From a virus, in IMG/VR virus record IMGVR_UViG_3300032093_000751, positions 1-25,758 of that record: a stretch of 25,758 nt of DNA. One strand, given 5' to 3'. Below, piece by piece: positions 11,232 through 24,684 of the stretch (its first letter is position 1; every line of letters starts with the position of its first letter). Under the pieces are notes generated by a model that saw only the letters and a program-made list of their open reading frames with translations, did not search any database and was not told the origin of the DNA. Made by a program: the position numbers and the translations under genes.

Positions 11232-11256
11232 AAATCTAAATTATAGAATTTATTGA

Positions 11257-11294
11257 CCCCTCTTTCTAAATATAAGAAAGGGGGGGATTTTTTT
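11257..11294 (+). terminator. Intrinsic terminator touching the next start codon
   Basis: An 11-bp stem (CCCCTCTTTCT against AGAAAGGGGGG, one G-T pair) with loop AAATATA is followed by GA and seven T. The last T is immediately followed by the ATG at 11295. Confidence 0.85.
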
Positions 11295-12707
11295 ATGCAA
11301 GTTGCTGATGATATTAATATTTTTAATTTTTTTAATAAGTTAAAATATATTGATAATTTTGTAATTGATAATGTTGAATTTACTAAAGATGGGGTTGAAA
11401 TTACTTTTGTAGTCAAAAGTAATTATGAGGGGGAAGTTGAATTAAAAATTAATAATTTATTAGAAAAAAATTTTAATACAGTACCAAAACTTACATCAAA
11501 GGGGATGGTAAGGGGAAAATATAAAATTTTAATTGAAACTACGCAATCTTATAATAATAATCCAACAGCAGCACAGCAAGAAAAGGGATCTATATGGATT
11601 TTTAATAAAGTTCTTAAAAATAAAGATTCGAAGGCAAAATTTTCTACTATTCAAGATATTAAAACCAACCCTGATTATGATGAATTAAAAAGAATATTTG
11701 GTGGAGAAGTCCCTAATGATTGGTTAGACTCATATTTAAAGCAACAAAAGAAAATGTTTGAAATATATGCAAGCCCTGAGTGGGACGAATTTAAATATTC
11801 TGGATCTAATAGTTTTATGGATTATATAAAAGATAAAGTTAAAAGTTTAGGGATAAAAAAGTATGCTGATTGGACACCAGCTGATATTTGGATGGTTAAA
11901 AATCAAAAACTAATAGAAGAAGAAATAGAAAACGAGTTAAGTAAGAATGGATCAATACCGACACAAACTGTAAATGAATTAAATGATATTTTAAGAAGAT
12001 TGTTTAAAGAAAAAAAAGTTGTTGGAGTATCTCTAAAAAAAATTTCTGGAAAAGAATCTAAATTTGAGCAAGTCAATGTCAGAATACCAACTGATGATAG
12101 AATATTAAGAAGACAAAAAAATAGTTATAATGTACCAAAAAGTAAAATTAAAATATTGTTAGACTTATCTTATAGTTCTTTAAAGAAATCCTTTGGAACT
12201 CAGGATCTTACTGTAAAACTTGGAAATAATTATAAGTTTCAAATTAAAAACCTTAGTGGAAATGATCGTAGCTTTGATAATTTAAAATTTGAAGGAACGC
12301 CCGTAGGATCTTCATCTGCAAGAGGAGGAAAAGCACCAACTGAAATGGTAGTTGAATTGATAAAAAGTAATGGTTTTGTATTTAAAAATGATCATAATAA
12401 TTACCCCAAAAATTTAGAACAATTTGAAAAAAATAAAGAAAAATACTTAAAGATGTTTAATAAGGTTAAAAGATTTGCAACTACTAATATATCAAATGAC
12501 ACTGAATTTATATTGAATTTTTCTAGGATGTTTAGTTCGGATAAAAAAAATATTATCATTGCCAATTCTAAATTAATGCAATTGGAGTTTATATCTAAAG
12601 TTTTAGAAATAACTCCTTCCCCTAAATATGAAGAGTTTTGGACTGATATGTTTTGGATTTCAATTAGAAAAGGAAAAAACTTTGGACCCCACGGAAAACT
12701 GTATTAA
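11295..12707 (+). CDS. Unrecognised AT-rich late-region protein
   Basis: A 470-residue protein that I cannot assign. It is very rich in Lys, Asn and Ile, with mainly ATT/ATA, TTA and AAA/AAT codons, giving a more AT-rich gene than its neighbours. A WTPADIWMVKNQKL segment (about residues 195-208) and SSSARGGKAPTEMVVELIK near residue 350 are the most distinctive stretches. No signal peptide or membrane segment is evident. The frame can be extended to a TTG at 11253, but this would run through the terminator stem, so ATG 11295 is preferred. No normal ribosome binding site is free: the only G-rich stretch is in the terminator arm. It may be an acquired cargo gene. Confidence 0.8.
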   Translation: MQVADDINIFNFFNKLKYIDNFVIDNVEFTKDGVEITFVVKSNYEGEVELKINNLLEKNFNTVPKLTSKGMVRGKYKILIETTQSYNNNPTAAQQEKGSIWIFNKVLKNKDSKAKFSTIQDIKTNPDYDELKRIFGGEVPNDWLDSYLKQQKKMFEIYASPEWDEFKYSGSNSFMDYIKDKVKSLGIKKYADWTPADIWMVKNQKLIEEEIENELSKNGSIPTQTVNELNDILRRLFKEKKVVGVSLKKISGKESKFEQVNVRIPTDDRILRRQKNSYNVPKSKIKILLDLSYSSLKKSFGTQDLTVKLGNNYKFQIKNLSGNDRSFDNLKFEGTPVGSSSARGGKAPTEMVVELIKSNGFVFKNDHNNYPKNLEQFEKNKEKYLKMFNKVKRFATTNISNDTEFILNFSRMFSSDKKNIIIANSKLMQLEFISKVLEITPSPKYEEFWTDMFWISIRKGKNFGPHGKLY

Positions 12708-12713
12708 TAAATA
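12706..12713 (+). promoter_or_regulatory. Late promoter-like octamer AATAAATA
   Basis: It overlaps the preceding stop codon and lies 18 bases before the ATG at 12732. The flank AATTAGAAA resembles the 10110 promoter. Confidence 0.65.
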
Positions 12714-12731: not shown

Positions 12732-14039
12732 ATGAAGAAGTTTTCCCAATTTATATTAGAAGCAAAAGAAACCAGAGCATCAGAGCAAGCTAAAAAACTT
12801 GGTCTGGTTGGTGATGGTCATGGGGATTGGTATAATTCTCAGGGAGAGTTTGTTGCAAAAACTGTAGATGGGCAGTTGAAGTTTTTTAATAAAGGACAAA
12901 GAATTGGATTAAGAGATATTCCTCCCAAACCGGGCAAAGGAGGAGGAGCACCCGCAACAGCACAACAACAAATTTCTCCACAACAATCGCAGGGACAGCA
13001 AATTTCTCCTCAGAGAATACCTGTAGGACAAGAAGATCAAATGCCTGCCGATGATGAATTTTTAACTGTAGTTCTTGCTAAATTCAATCCACCATCAAAG
13101 GAACATAAGAAATTATTTACCGCAGCAAAAAGGGTTTCCTTGGGAGGTGAGATAAGAATATATCCATCTAGGATAGAGGATACTAAATCAAATCCATTGA
13201 GTTCAAATAGAAAGATTTATTATTTGAAGACGATGTTTCCCGAAATTAAAGATGATATTGTAAATAACCCAGAAATAAGAACTATATTTGATGTGTTGCT
13301 TGCGGGAAATGAAGATGGATATTCAAATGTAAATATTGTTGTCGGATCTGATCGTCAAGCTGAAATTCAAAATTTAGCAAATAAACACAATGGAAAATTT
13401 TATCAGTATAATGAGATAAAAGTAATTCCTACAGGAACCTTTGATTCTGAAAAAGATATTTCTGGTATTTCTTCTGGTATGATGAGAAAAACTGCTGCCG
13501 ATAATAATTTTAGAGAATTTAAGAGAGCAGTTCCTAAAACCATCGATGAGGTTGATGCTAGAAAATTATTTAATGAAATCAGAAAAGCGATGGGATTTAA
13601 AGAAAATGTTAAAGAACATTATAATCTTTGGGAAATAGCACCAGAATTAGATTTTACAAATTTAAGAGAAAATTATATTCAAAATAAAATATTTAAACTT
13701 GGAGATATTGTAGAGAATGTAAATACTGGATTAGTTGGAAAAGTTATACGTAGAGGAACAAATTATCTAATTTGCGTGACCGAAGAAGATATTATGTTTA
13801 AATCTTGGATAAAAGATATTGTTGAATATACAGAAGTGAAAATGGATAGTCCAATGAGAGATAAGATTCACCCAAATACTCTTGTTGGAACTTTAGGGGC
13901 ATTTAAACATTATGCAAAAATGACTCCAGGTGCTATAGGAACAAATAGTAAATACCTCCAAACAGGAGGCAAGGCATATGGGGTCAATTTTATAAATAAG
14001 TATAAGGCAAAAAAGCAAGCACTTGTTAAAAATGACTAA
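12732..14039 (+). CDS. Virion-type protein with nucleotidyltransferase-like domain
   Basis: A 435-residue modular protein. The N-terminus (MKKFSQFILEA) is of a kind frequent in cyanophage virion proteins, followed by a Gln/Pro-rich linker (about residues 64-100). Residues 108-270 resemble the NMN/cytidylyltransferase fold: VVLAKFNPPSKEH (113-125) at the place of the HxGH motif, VVGSDRQAE in the middle, and ISSGMMR (246-252) at the place of ISSTxxR. The canonical glycine of HxGH is replaced by Glu (E124) and the Thr of ISST by Gly, so activity is doubtful. A small beta domain (FKLGDIVENVNTGLVGKVI) follows. The late promoter upstream fits a packaged protein. The domain call is from motifs; the structural role is inference. 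Confidence 0.75.
   Translation: MKKFSQFILEAKETRASEQAKKLGLVGDGHGDWYNSQGEFVAKTVDGQLKFFNKGQRIGLRDIPPKPGKGGGAPATAQQQISPQQSQGQQISPQRIPVGQEDQMPADDEFLTVVLAKFNPPSKEHKKLFTAAKRVSLGGEIRIYPSRIEDTKSNPLSSNRKIYYLKTMFPEIKDDIVNNPEIRTIFDVLLAGNEDGYSNVNIVVGSDRQAEIQNLANKHNGKFYQYNEIKVIPTGTFDSEKDISGISSGMMRKTAADNNFREFKRAVPKTIDEVDARKLFNEIRKAMGFKENVKEHYNLWEIAPELDFTNLRENYIQNKIFKLGDIVENVNTGLVGKVIRRGTNYLICVTEEDIMFKSWIKDIVEYTEVKMDSPMRDKIHPNTLVGTLGAFKHYAKMTPGAIGTNSKYLQTGGKAYGVNFINKYKAKKQALVKND
13991..13998 (+). promoter_or_regulatory. Late promoter TATAAATA inside the upstream gene
   Basis: An exact late consensus 33 bases before the ATG at 14032, within the 3' end of the nucleotidyltransferase-like gene. It is well placed to drive the next gene independently. 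Confidence 0.6.
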
Positions 14040-16617
14040 AGCAAAACCCGATTACCTTGATTTTGATGGTGATAATAACACTAAAGAATCAATGAGAAAG
14101 GCATTGAGAGATAAAAAATCAAAGTCTGTTAAAGAAGGATTGATTGGTGGTCAGACTAAAATTGATGTTGCTGCACCTTATGGGAAACTAACATCTGATG
14201 ATTTTAAACAACTCCGTAAAGGAAAGAAGAAAAAAATAAAGGAAGGTTTCTCAAATTGGAGAGAAGACCTGATTGAAATTGCGGATAAACTCCCATCTAA
14301 AGATAAAGATCAAAAAATTGTAGAGAAGAAAGTCAATAATAAAGTAAATATTAATCCAAAACTTGATCTTGGTGAGGCAGTAGAAAATCTTGGTGGAACT
14401 CTCATTGAGATGATCGAGATTAATGAAGTAGATTATATTATTGAAAGTGTTTATGAAGAACTGTTTGATGAAGGATATGAAGAGGATGATATTGAAGAAG
14501 CACTTGAATATGCTTTAGTTGAGGCAAAAGTAACTTTTGGACACGATACGGATAAACCATACGAACATAAAAAGAAAAGTGGAGTTGGTAATTTAGTTAA
14601 GGCAGTGGGAAGACTTGCAAGACAAAAGTTGTCTTCAAAATATCGCGGTGCTAAAAGATCAGTAGGTTCGGCAGCTGTTGGTGGATTAAGGAATGTTGCT
14701 AAAGGTGCTTTAGGTGTTGCTCGCAAAATTGAAGGCGATAAAAAACCAAGTACAGCACATACTAAAACAAGAACTGCATCAACTTACCGTGGTGCTGGAG
14801 TTGGACAAAGAGAAAGAGTAAGTAGTGGATCCTATTCGGCACCAAAATCAGAAGCACCAAAACCATCACCAAAACCAGAACCAAAAAAGGCATCAACACC
14901 AGTTGCTGATCCTTGGGGACCTGCAACTACTCCTTCAAAAAAGTCAGCACCAAAACCTCAGGCAAAGACAACCAAAGTTCCTGTAAAAACTTCAGAACCA
15001 GATCAGGGATTGATTGCTAGACAAAAGGCAGCAGCTGTAAGAGCGCAGCGTAGAAATATAAACATATCGCTAGGAGATCTCCAGAGAGTTATTAGTAATG
15101 TAAAAGAAGATTATTATGATCTTGCATCAAAGTCAGTAAAACCAGGAAAACCCGGAGAAGAGCAAAAAAGAACAATTGAAACTTTAGCTTCAAAAGCAAG
15201 AACAAAAAAGAAAACTAGAACTCCAGTAGGAACTGCTAGAAGAGGAAGTGCTACTTTTAAACCATCTTCTCCAGAAGAGGCGGAAGCAAATAAAAAGTCT
15301 TGGGGTGATTATTGGAGTTCTGCTGCTAAAGGATATAAAGAAGAATATGACCTACTAGAAAAGGCAGAAAGTGAGCAGCAGCAAAAGATTTTTGGTCTTG
15401 CTCTTTCTGTAAAAAGAGGTCAAACCCCAAGATCTGAAGTAAGTGATAGAGTTCTTAAAATTGTTGATGGAATGGGCGAAAAGGAAATTCGTAAGTTTGC
15501 TAAAACAAAGCATGAAGGACTTCCCCACAAAGTCGAAACAAAAGAAGAAGTAATAAGACAACAAATTATTGCTAGAATGATTAATAAAATTGAAGAACAA
15601 AGTGAGATTTGCGTAGATGAAGCAAAACTTCCAAGTTCAATGAAAAAGGGCAAAAAGAAAGTAGAAAGTAAAACACAGGTCATCCACGATGTAGATGATA
15701 ATCTTGCAGATCAGAGACATCCTGATGCTGCTAAAATTGATGTGATGAGAAAGAAATCGGGTGAGTGGAAGAAGGTACAATCATTAACACCTAGCCAGTT
15801 TGCCCATCATAAACTCAGAAAACCGGGAGAACCTGTAAAGGAAGAAAATGATCCTGGGGATAAGTATGGATTTGATCAGTTTAGAGATACTCAAAAATTC
15901 AAAAAAACAACAAAGGCAAATAAACCAGTGGTTAGATTGGGGGATAGTCCAAGAAGACCCGCACAAAAATCTGTTGTGACCGCTCGTGGTGGATCTGAAT
16001 TTGGAAGCAAAAAACCAAGCACTCCTATGGATAAACCCGGAGAATTTGCTAAAGATTTAAAAACTAGAATTGGTGTAAAAAACCTTGAAAGGAAGAATGT
16101 TCATTTTACCGGCGGAATGCGTAGTGGATCTGGTCCCGAAAAGAAAGGTGAAGTCGTTAAAAAAATTGTAAAACCTGATGCTAAAAAAGTTATTACAACT
16201 GATGACCATTTACAAAATGTAAGACATATGGCGGCAGCAGCATCTTCAGTTGCACCAAAAGCTAAGGTTAGAGCATATCAATCTAAACCTGCTACAAAAG
16301 CAAAAGGAAAGGTAAAAACTGGAGATATTGTTCCAGTAAGAGTTGGTAAAGAAAGTGATTTGCAAAGTAAGAATATAGGAATTCGTTCGAATACTTCTCC
16401 TTCAAAATCTCCTCAAGAAACACAAAAAAGAAGAAAGCAACAAAAGATGAGAGAAGCAGTTGATGTTGCTCAAACCAGAGAAAAACCACAAAATCCTTCT
16501 GCAATTAATCAAGTTCTTCAGGCAAAAGCAAAAGCAGATGCTGCAGAAAGAGAACTTGCAAATAAGCAGAGAATGGCTACTCAAAAAGGAGTGAATTTAT
16601 CTTCAATTTCTTCATAA
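14032..16617 (+). CDS. Large virion-type protein with HAD-like domain
   Basis: An 861-residue modular protein. The N-terminus KPDYLDFDGDNNTKESM recurs in phage head or core proteins. An acidic helical module around residues 138-164 (VYEELFDEGYEEDDIEEALE) is followed by a long basic Lys/Ala/Pro-rich region (about 180-330). Residues 548-735 match the HAD hydrolase motif order: DVDDN with D553 and D555 (motif I), VVTARGG with T650 (motif II), a lysine-rich stretch KKGEVVKKI, and TTDDHLQNV with D724/D725 (motif IV). Many lysines suggest DNA contact. The frame reaches back to TTG 14023, but ATG 14032 is preferred, overlapping the upstream gene by 8 bases. The virion location is an inference. Confidence 0.75.
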   Translation: MTKAKPDYLDFDGDNNTKESMRKALRDKKSKSVKEGLIGGQTKIDVAAPYGKLTSDDFKQLRKGKKKKIKEGFSNWREDLIEIADKLPSKDKDQKIVEKKVNNKVNINPKLDLGEAVENLGGTLIEMIEINEVDYIIESVYEELFDEGYEEDDIEEALEYALVEAKVTFGHDTDKPYEHKKKSGVGNLVKAVGRLARQKLSSKYRGAKRSVGSAAVGGLRNVAKGALGVARKIEGDKKPSTAHTKTRTASTYRGAGVGQRERVSSGSYSAPKSEAPKPSPKPEPKKASTPVADPWGPATTPSKKSAPKPQAKTTKVPVKTSEPDQGLIARQKAAAVRAQRRNINISLGDLQRVISNVKEDYYDLASKSVKPGKPGEEQKRTIETLASKARTKKKTRTPVGTARRGSATFKPSSPEEAEANKKSWGDYWSSAAKGYKEEYDLLEKAESEQQQKIFGLALSVKRGQTPRSEVSDRVLKIVDGMGEKEIRKFAKTKHEGLPHKVETKEEVIRQQIIARMINKIEEQSEICVDEAKLPSSMKKGKKKVESKTQVIHDVDDNLADQRHPDAAKIDVMRKKSGEWKKVQSLTPSQFAHHKLRKPGEPVKEENDPGDKYGFDQFRDTQKFKKTTKANKPVVRLGDSPRRPAQKSVVTARGGSEFGSKKPSTPMDKPGEFAKDLKTRIGVKNLERKNVHFTGGMRSGSGPEKKGEVVKKIVKPDAKKVITTDDHLQNVRHMAAAASSVAPKAKVRAYQSKPATKAKGKVKTGDIVPVRVGKESDLQSKNIGIRSNTSPSKSPQETQKRRKQQKMREAVDVAQTREKPQNPSAINQVLQAKAKADAAERELANKQRMATQKGVNLSSISS

Positions 16618-22228: not shown

Positions 22229-22260
22229 AATCCATATGTTTAAATCCATATGGATTATTC
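22225..22260 (+). repeat. Perfect 14-bp inverted repeat over the HNH start codon
   Basis: GAATAATCCATATG (22225-22238) and CATATGGATTATTC (22247-22260) are perfect complements around an 8-base loop. The right arm contains the ATG at 22250-22252, so in read-through RNA from nrdA the start codon would be in a stable stem. Confidence 0.9.
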
Positions 22261-22819
22261 CAGACAGTATAATCTAATTATTAATAAAGCAAAAGAAAGA
22301 GTTTTGGAAGAATACTCTGAAACACATCATATTATTCCAAAATGCTTAGGTGGGACTAATGAAAATACTAATCTAGTGGAATTAACTCCTAGAGAACATT
22401 TGATATGTCATAGATTATTAGTTAAAATGTATCCAAACAATATAAGTCTTCATCGAGCATATAATGCTATGGGAACTAGATGTAATTTTTCTTCTAAACT
22501 ATTTGCAAAAACTAGAAAATATATTTCTGAATATCAAACAGGAACAAAACTTTCAGAAGAAACAAAACAAAAAATGTCTAAAACTAGAAAGGGAGTTCTT
22601 AAAAGTGAAGAAACTAAAAGAAAAATGTCTAAACCAAAAACAGAGGAAACTAAAAGAAAAATGTCTTTAGCACAAAAAGGCAACACTAAAGGTTCTAAAA
22701 ACAAAGGAACCTTCTTTTGGATAAATAATGGAGTTGTTGGTAAGAGAGTATCTTCAGAAGAAAAAATTCCAGAAGGTTGGAAAAGAGGACACGGAAACTT
22801 GCATATTAAAAACTTATGA
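22250..22819 (+). CDS. HNH homing endonuclease with NUMOD3 repeats
   Basis: A 189-residue free-standing homing endonuclease gene inserted between nrdA and nrdB. The HNH nuclease motif is ETHHIIPKCLGG (H26, H27), then NTNLVELTPREHLICH with N41, H50 and H54. Behind it come three NUMOD3-type DNA-binding repeats (SEETKQKMSKTRKG, SEETKRKMSKPK, TEETKRKMSLAQKG, about residues 102-143), and a C-terminal FFWINNGVVGKRV segment. It probably cuts phages that lack the insert in nrdA or nrdB and so spreads the element. The start codon is buried in a 14-bp hairpin. The stop overlaps the nrdB start (ATGA). The gene is more AT-rich than nrdA and nrdB. Confidence 0.9.
   Translation: MDYSRQYNLIINKAKERVLEEYSETHHIIPKCLGGTNENTNLVELTPREHLICHRLLVKMYPNNISLHRAYNAMGTRCNFSSKLFAKTRKYISEYQTGTKLSEETKQKMSKTRKGVLKSEETKRKMSKPKTEETKRKMSLAQKGNTKGSKNKGTFFWINNGVVGKRVSSEEKIPEGWKRGHGNLHIKNL
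22559..22666 (+). repeat. DNA repeats encoding NUMOD3 units
   Basis: Two identical 21-base copies lie at 22610-22630 and 22646-22666, 36 bases apart, with a diverged copy at 22559-22579, 51 bases before the first. They encode EETKRKMS-type helices of the HNH protein, so the repeat arises from module duplication. Confidence 0.8.
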
Positions 22820-24069: not shown

Positions 24070-24684
24070 ATGAATAACTATATTCTTTACTATTACTTAA
24101 GGGAGGACTTTAGTTCTCCCTTTTATGTTGGTTATGGAAGACCAAGAAGAATTAATTCCAGACACTCTAGAAGAAATGGTGCTGAAATTTTACCCCCAAG
24201 AGAAAGAAGATGGATTGTAAAATCTGGATTAACTAAAGAAGAAGCAATAGAACTTGAGATAAAACATATAGCACTCTGGAAAAGAGAATGTGATGGTGGA
24301 ATTCTATTAAATCAAAATCTTGGTGGTGAAGGAAAACCTGGAGGACAAAGAACGAAGGGATTTGGTGGAAGAAAACATAGTGAAGAAGCAAAGAAAAGAA
24401 TAAGTGAAAAGGTTGCTGGTAAGAATAATCCAAGATATGGAGTTAAACTATCGCAAGAGACAAGAAATAAGATAAGTCAAAATAGAGCACCAAAGTTTGG
24501 TAAAGATAATCCAAACTCTAAAACTTGGAAGATTGTTTCTCCAGAGAATAAGGAGTACATTATTACTGGAGCATTAAAAGAGTTTTGTAAGTCTCAAAAT
24601 ATTTCATATGCTACTATGAGTGCCGCAATTAAGTATGATAGAAGAGGTCCAAGAAAAAATGGATGGAGTATTGAGAAAGTTTAG
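24070..24684 (+). CDS. GIY-YIG homing endonuclease with NUMOD repeats
   Basis: A 204-residue free-standing homing endonuclease gene just after nrdB. The GIY-YIG domain is recognisable in a variant form: ILYYYL at the first strand, FYVGYG with Y19 and G21, arginines in GRPRRINSRH, a glutamate-bearing helix (TKEEAIELEIKHIALW, E61 or E63) and LLNQNLGGEG. NUMOD3-type repeats follow (GRKHSEEAKKRISEK and GVKLSQETRNKISQ). A NUMOD1-like helix-turn-helix ends the protein (YIITGALKEFCKSQNISYAT). It probably targets the nrdB region of related phages. Expression appears controlled by the inverted repeat and late promoter upstream. Its 3' end overlaps the next gene by 26 bases. Confidence 0.88.
   Translation: MNNYILYYYLREDFSSPFYVGYGRPRRINSRHSRRNGAEILPPRERRWIVKSGLTKEEAIELEIKHIALWKRECDGGILLNQNLGGEGKPGGQRTKGFGGRKHSEEAKKRISEKVAGKNNPRYGVKLSQETRNKISQNRAPKFGKDNPNSKTWKIVSPENKEYIITGALKEFCKSQNISYATMSAAIKYDRRGPRKNGWSIEKV

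Follow-up and report, generated by a model that had tools for sequence, protein, structure and literature searches.

Cytidyltransferase-like proteins of the T4-GC190 type are encoded by a core gene of the cyanophages and were present in particles of phage S-SM1 (Sullivan 2010, PMC3037559). Mass spectrometry of purified cyanophage particles also identified family members in S-SCSM1, where a role in the supply of nicotinamide adenine dinucleotide (NAD) was proposed for a virion NMNAT (PMC9602691), in S-SZBM1 together with the product of the gene that follows (PMC9146016), and in S-CREM2, with S-CBWM1 also named (PMC10665884). Here we describe a member of this family in a single virus fragment from IMG/VR (record IMGVR_UViG_3300032093_000751, G000), whose whole length of 25,758 bases is referred to as the window. 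In it, a 435-residue protein carrying a nucleotidyltransferase domain with altered active-site motifs is directly followed by a modular protein with a HAD-like phosphatase domain. We consider it slightly better than an even chance, with a probability of roughly 0.55, that both proteins are internal cargo of the phage head whose two domains are functional enzymes and act in one pathway early in infection.

As in the T4-GC190/PHROG_395 proteins of cyanophages, the window gene lies between mazG and primase/nrdA and its product begins with the same kind of N-terminal peptide, whereas the motifs are canonical (H/T)xGH/SxSxxR there and SKEH/SSGMMR in the window clade. The internal proteins IPII and IPIII of phage T4 share with the window protein the N-terminal peptide pattern and the L/I-x-E site with cleavage before A; in contrast, the window cargo is a nucleotidyltransferase, no homology was seen between the mature parts, and cleavage and ejection are predicted for the window protein. 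The fold and chemistry of T4 Alt, an NAD-using ADP-ribosyltransferase, differ from those of the window nucleotidyltransferase. Nevertheless, Alt sets a precedent for an enzyme that travels inside the head and enters the host by injection (PMC9503650). Polyvalent phage proteins are likewise multidomain virion proteins with enzyme domains (PMC5512222); in the accessible text of that article a HIGH-type nucleotidyltransferase is not mentioned and the term "HAD superfamily" has 0 occurrences.

The original prediction had placed a nucleotidyltransferase domain with altered motifs in the 435-residue protein, and both the domain and the motifs were confirmed at this open reading frame (ORF): FNPPSKEH stands at residues 118-125 and ISSGMMR at residues 246-252, PHROG_395 ("cytidyltransferase") matches the protein over its full length (E = 1.1e-83), and the predicted structure resembles the solved structures of PPAT, NadD and NMNAT. 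The AlphaFold2 model of residues 106-374 has a mean predicted local distance difference test (pLDDT) score of 84.0; its best Foldseek match is 8aih (E = 2.2e-6) and its best match in VIA, which compares against the families that it lists, is 5h16_A (Z 13.6, 156 aligned residues, 3.0 Å). All top structural matches are adenylyltransferases, in agreement with a Rossmann-like nucleotidyltransferase fold. Since PPAT, NadD and NMNAT match about equally well (VIA Z 13.6 to 12.2), the reaction is not readable from the fold. Relatives were found in 529 of 50,697 phage records, and the P-SSM2 member carries the annotation T4-GC190, while a search for plasmid relatives gave none. After removal of 16 rows with unmapped coordinates and 12 duplicates, the alignment of relatives held 77 rows, 50 of them under 92% identity; the Pfam family CTP_transf_like matched 45 of these 50 at E<=1 (best 9e-10) and did not match the window protein itself. 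Sequence searches of the PDB with the domain or with profiles A1, A2 and A3 gave no meaningful match. The small beta domain at the C-terminal side also occurs without the nucleotidyltransferase in other phage proteins, and as a separate ORF in ACG-2014h.

The N-terminus of the window protein, MKKFSQFILEA, corresponds to MKTYQEFIAEA of T4 IPII and IPIII and likewise holds a gp21-type L/I-x-E site in front of the last alanine. The first 10 residues of IPIII are enough to direct packaging in T4, and L/I-x-E is the cleavage specificity of gp21 (PMC9026906). The N-terminal match thus points to the head interior. When all loci collected at that stage were surveyed with a strict regular expression for the targeting peptide, it matched 106 of 4669 methionines near ORF starts and none of the 9670 internal ones. 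These matches comprised 88 members of the nucleotidyltransferase family, 14 of a second family, one Melnitz-1 protein, one protein of locus L047, and T4 IPII and IPIII; because such counts contain many near relatives, more weight lies on how many independent families there are (six clusters). The second family, unrelated and of about 153 residues, has the capsid-targeting-like N-terminus MKTFLEFISEA and was seen in L031 and 13 other loci. Furthermore, three L/I-x-E-A sites each were counted in the neighbouring 363-residue protein (0.32 expected) and in the 864-residue form of the protein that follows the nucleotidyltransferase (0.52 expected), and none in seven tested proteins of replication and nucleotide metabolism.

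The second protein joins an N-terminal region, a DUF3008 module and the HAD-like domain. Its N-terminal region is common with gp280 of S-SCSM1 (36% identity over 145 residues); gp280 and gp279 are annotated as virion proteins, and gp279 is a separate DUF3008 protein of 69 residues. Repeated DxDxDG loops (DxDNDGxxNxxD) were seen at window positions 14047-14079, in gp280 (locus L089) and in the downstream proteins of L016 and L020; such loops in the modular proteins behind the nucleotidyltransferase resemble calcium-binding EF-hand or dockerin loops. The HAD motif order read in the original prediction, DVDDN, VVTARGG and TTDDHLQNV, was located, with VTARGG at residues 652-657 and a further motif, GPEKK, at 704-708, so that the DxDx, S/T, K and DD motifs of the HAD family stand in order. 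All 16 aligned relatives, which are 31-96% identical to the window (alignment A1), share the motif residues without change, and all 14 rows of a broader set, canonical DxDET versions included, keep them. Ratios of nonsynonymous to synonymous substitution rates (dN/dS) were 0.038-0.057 against the four closest relatives; they did not exceed 0.28 when closer members within one version were compared, and were higher between diverged members, for which dS is near saturation. None of the curated Pfam HAD models matched any of the 16 members; relative L292 reached 1.1e-4 and 22.2 bits with PF03767, below the cut-off of 27 bits. In the structural model (pLDDT 71.4) the first matches were HAD phosphatases: Foldseek placed the HAD domain of Legionella Lem4 on top (E = 8.7e-4), and the six best VIA rows were all T4 Pnkp (Z 9.5-9.0), headed by 5uj0_B with 134 aligned residues and 22% identity. 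Two relatives, L292 and L290, also match PHROG_415, "polynucleotide kinase" (9.4e-8 and 1e-4). The window domain nevertheless differs from the 3'-phosphatase of T4 Pnkp in lacking a profile-profile match, with hhalign giving a probability of 0.3% for the HAD alignment against T4 Pnkp, and in that no kinase domain was recognised alongside it. The hhalign result does not support the domain as a proven Pnkp, and it may or may not be kin to that enzyme. A chance match of motifs was rejected on the grounds of fold, conservation and dN/dS.

We then compared the nucleotidyltransferase motifs among 105 aligned rows (93 distinct), namely the window, 77 of 80 loci of a first set and 27 of 80 loci of a second set, the partial loci L011, L019 and L028 being omitted. 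Canonical motifs, absent from the window protein ((H/T)xGH and ISSTxxR-type), were present in 80 rows, 53 with TxGH and 27 with HxGH, all combined with SxS in motif II. The remaining 25 rows, which include the window, combine (S/T)KEH with SS(G/A)M throughout, and mixed rows amount to 0. Most homologues thus keep HxGH or TxGH together with SxSxxR, and a collapse of the active site in all homologues, the outcome named in the original prediction as refuting it, was not observed. The GH of motif I was canonical in all eight nucleotidyltransferase genes inspected from isolates or single-cell viruses. The KEH rows form one clade, to which L197, with TKGH and SSAKMR, is sister; the changes in the window lineage run from TxGH to SKEH and from SxSKMR to SSGMMR. 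Within the clade dN/dS of the nucleotidyltransferase domain is 0.05-0.20, and hence the domain is not decaying. A second altered set has SKNH or SKLH, found in 47 of the 80 further loci, with SS(A/S)xMR or SSALMK as motif II in 13 aligned rows. In this lineage the gene after the nucleotidyltransferase starts with MKDWxEIISEA or MRTWKEIIKEA. On a tree of 44 rows built without the motif columns, in which L197 was excluded from the trait pairs, two changes were counted for the motif and two for the presence of HAD; the starred branches force two for the motif, and none of the bootstrap trees joined the two altered lineages. From these sequence comparisons we favour two origins of the altered motifs.

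The altered motif and the HAD domain largely go together. With a HAD hidden Markov model, the domain was detected in the next gene or genes of every KEH locus having 3 kb or more of downstream sequence (21 of 21), and the four KEH loci without HAD end early; none of the 61 canonical loci with 3 kb was positive. Across whole canonical records, profile A1 found HAD in 0 of 34, a sample made up of 8 (G022, G023, G025-G030), 16 (G042-G057) and 10 records with several short fragments among them, and the broader profile A4 in 0 of 25, with 4 of 4 positive controls found. L285/G024, in which the nucleotidyltransferase motif was not read, was left out of these counts. In the SK(N/L)H lineage the HAD domain lies 9-11 kb downstream of the nucleotidyltransferase, behind nrdB; it is present in 10 of 22 records, searched as sets of 16 and 6, and 11 of the other 12 stop before nrdB or at most about 150 bases past it, so that it occurs in 10 of the 11 records continuing beyond nrdB. 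A strict tie was rejected, because L197 has HAD although its motif I keeps the glycine (TKGH/SSAKMR), and because of one SKNH record without HAD that is taken up below. As read from the sequences, the pairing is pronounced, but the independent events behind it are few. In the SKNH record G005, the one record comparable in this respect, the HAD domain is close to the window type and the nucleotidyltransferase is only 49% identical, which suggests that the HAD module moves. HAD-bearing proteins were also seen elsewhere (L189, L191, L192, L193, L194, L286), directly behind nrdB in L189 and L192-L194, and such proteins at other sites point to movement of the module between host proteins and loci.

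Taken together, these data make the 435-residue protein a probable internal component of the head of a cyanophage-like virus of the T4 type. Judging by its N-terminal peptide, it would be drawn into the prohead core and trimmed by the prohead protease after ILE, and by analogy with the T4 internal proteins the DNA would carry it along on ejection. The protein encoded next to it, too, is most likely cargo of the head or the particle; its HAD-type phosphatase domain may take the phosphate off a phosphorylated nucleotide or a nucleic-acid end, and the re-tuned nucleotidyltransferase may use a different donor or act on a related substrate. Of these steps packaging has the strongest support, followed by phosphatase activity, and the shared pathway is a guess from co-occurrence. 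A more far-reaching version is tentative: a head-packaged two-enzyme pathway in two lineages, with like motif changes (TxGH to SKxH, SxSKMR to SS[GAS]xMR), an injected pair acting on one substrate and a mobile HAD module, which would sit in another late or virion-type modular protein; the place of this protein would be next to the nucleotidyltransferase in the window lineage and behind nrdB in the second one. A limited literature search found no report of the targeting peptide, of HAD in cyanophage virion proteins or of the link to the altered site.

Several observations weigh against this interpretation. Delivery with the particle, offered as speculation in the original prediction, gained support from the relatives in virions of S-SM1, S-SCSM1, S-SZBM1 and S-CREM2 and from the targeting-like N-terminus, but carry-over in caesium chloride preparations is allowed for by the authors of two of the virion studies (PMC9602691, PMC10665884), and virion proteomics covers other lineages than the HAD-bearing ones, which were seen here in metagenome contigs only. 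The HAD part had no match in the 50,697 phage records when two HAD versions were searched with tblastn. Moreover, the glycine-to-glutamate change in HxGH could mean lost catalysis, the hypothesis that the altered motif arose only once survives the approximately unbiased (AU) test (p 0.069), and L227/G032 (SKNH) is without HAD though it extends 2.6 kb past nrdB, with a homing endonuclease between. Shared ancestry also limits the independent motif/HAD pairs to one or two.

The loss of the HxGH glycine and of the serine/threonine and lysine of SxSKMR in the window clade, together with the modular, basic character and the low-complexity stretches of the proteins, would agree with a purely architectural role, in which both domains are folded building blocks of the head core and the altered motifs mark pseudoenzymes. 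This explanation appears doubtful, since the second histidine and the motif-II arginine position are kept in the KEH rows except for two of the 25 (those have lysine), A2 has F, N, P, P, H, G, D and R among its invariant columns as well as S and R of motif II, the HAD catalytic residues are invariant with low dN/dS, and the occurrence of like motif changes in two lineages speaks for selection and against decay. Another explanation, that the domain is an adenylyltransferase of nicotinamide or nicotinic acid mononucleotide restoring NAD as infection begins, perhaps to counter an NAD-depleting defence, is not new, as a virion nucleotidyltransferase and the NAD idea have already been published. 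The fold closest to PPAT, NadD and NMNAT, the virion location of relatives and a weak match of the L031 protein to PHROG_3462, nicotinamide-nucleotide adenylyltransferase (E = 0.076), fit with it. We regard it as improbable, as the fold makes no choice between PPAT and the NAD enzymes, the motifs for ATP are altered in the window clade, and the NAD made stoichiometrically by few packaged copies would be small compared to the cell pool. In addition, phages with NadM are stated always to carry NadV (PMC9503650), whereas the NadV-type partner PF04095 was found in 0 of 7 phage genomes bearing the nucleotidyltransferase (the control was positive in 6 of 14 genomes, and the window genome itself is a fragment). 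The NAD-cofactor role put forward in the original prediction is neither supported nor excluded, and for its suggested role against nucleotide-depleting defences no evidence was found.

The Pnkp-like matches of the HAD model and of L292 and L290 would fit with repair or modification of DNA or RNA ends early in infection, in which the nucleotidyltransferase would work with the ligase-like DUF6267 and, in the window lineage, with a Pnkp-like HAD 3'-phosphatase. DUF6267 occurs in 465 phage records, lies directly upstream of the nucleotidyltransferase in 27 of 27 HxGH loci and is fused with CTP_transf_like in one protein of S-PM2; its conserved KWDG ... PEGFVAI ... KLVDR presumably recalls ligase motifs I, IV and V. 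This scheme is unlikely: DUF6267 was not found in the available flanks of the 25 KEH loci, window included, and was rejected as the partner of the window protein, it has no PDB relative by sequence, and the Pnkp assignment of the HAD domain is opposed by the hhalign result and by the first rank of Lem4 in Foldseek. In the text and virion table of PMC9146016, S-SZBM1_141, the DUF6267 protein of that phage, is missing, while 136, 139 and 140 are listed. Examples of DUF6267 were seen in L200 (3992-5767, S-PM2), L090 (5718-6911), L091 (4538-5770) and L092 (4317-5564), with invariant KWDG, PEG(F/Y)VA and KLVDR reminiscent of ATP-dependent ligases, and in Pfam it is entered as a domain of unknown function.

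Features of the window discussed in the text, with coordinates on the 25,758-base fragment.
Feature	Position	Strand	Basis or remark
Late-promoter-like octamer AATAAATA	12706..12713	+	18 nt 5' of the nucleotidyltransferase gene start
435-residue protein with nucleotidyltransferase domain	12732..14039	+	PHROG_395 / T4-GC190 family
Capsid-targeting-like N-terminus MKKFSQFILEA, putative gp21-type cleavage after ILE (residue 10)	12732..12764	+	T4 IPII/IPIII pattern
HIGH/NMNAT-like nucleotidyltransferase domain, about residues 108-291	13053..13604	+	AlphaFold2 model and PDB matches
Motif I SKEH (canonical (H/T)xGH)	13095..13106	+	sequence
Motif II ISSGMMR (canonical SxSxxR / ISSTxxR)	13467..13487	+	sequence
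C-terminal small beta domain (FKLGDIVENVNTGLVGKV..MFKSWIKDI)	13692..13826	+	PHROG_4808 and 22379 matches; strands in model
Late-promoter-like octamer TATAAATA	13991..13998	+	33 nt 5' of the ATG at 14032
Modular basic protein, 861 residues from the likelier ATG (864 from TTG 14023)	14032..16617	+	N-terminal region, DUF3008, HAD-like
DUF3008 module (residues 448-504)	15364..15534	+	Pfam PF11450, E 6.9e-12
HAD-like phosphatase domain (about residues 548-750)	15664..16272	+	conserved motifs; model/PDB matches
HAD motif I DVDDN (residues 556-560)	15688..15702	+	sequence
HAD motif IV TTDDHLQNV (residues 725-733)	16195..16221	+	sequence

The gene order of the window is of the T4-like cyanophage type, with DNA polymerase, uvsX, gp41, mazG, unknown genes, primase, nrdA and nrdB. 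The nucleotidyltransferase gene and its downstream neighbour belong to the unknown genes between mazG and primase, a place of the former that is conserved by synteny with P-SSM2, S-SCSM1 and S-SZBM1. The original prediction had both genes following late promoters, which held in part: the octamers in front of both are promoter-like by sequence and enriched by position, but not across the window. The whole window holds 12 octamers compared to 10.95 expected, which rules out an overall enrichment, while 5 of 19 genes tested have one within 45 nt upstream (shuffle mean 0.98; 5 was reached in 13 of 5000 shuffles), all five lying between mazG and primase. Homing endonuclease genes flank nrdB in the window (22250-22819 and 24070-24684). 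Virion-region proteins adjoining the nucleotidyltransferase (window 11253-12707, L091 3487-4545, L088 11121-11798) were noted, and PD-(D/E)xK-like strings were picked out by eye in such adjacent proteins (ADIWMV..GVSLKK, KTDFTIGNNKISLK, PDAMFMY..LEVK); going by these strings, the proteins may be packaged nucleases.

The gene for the cytidyltransferase belongs to the core set of T4-like cyanophages, which are abundant viruses of the ocean, and its product was found in virions in 2010. The capsid-targeting peptide makes the idea of an injected cargo directly testable. Furthermore, an active-site change that is linked with a phosphatase domain provides a genetic handle on the substrate, as the pair should act on a common target.

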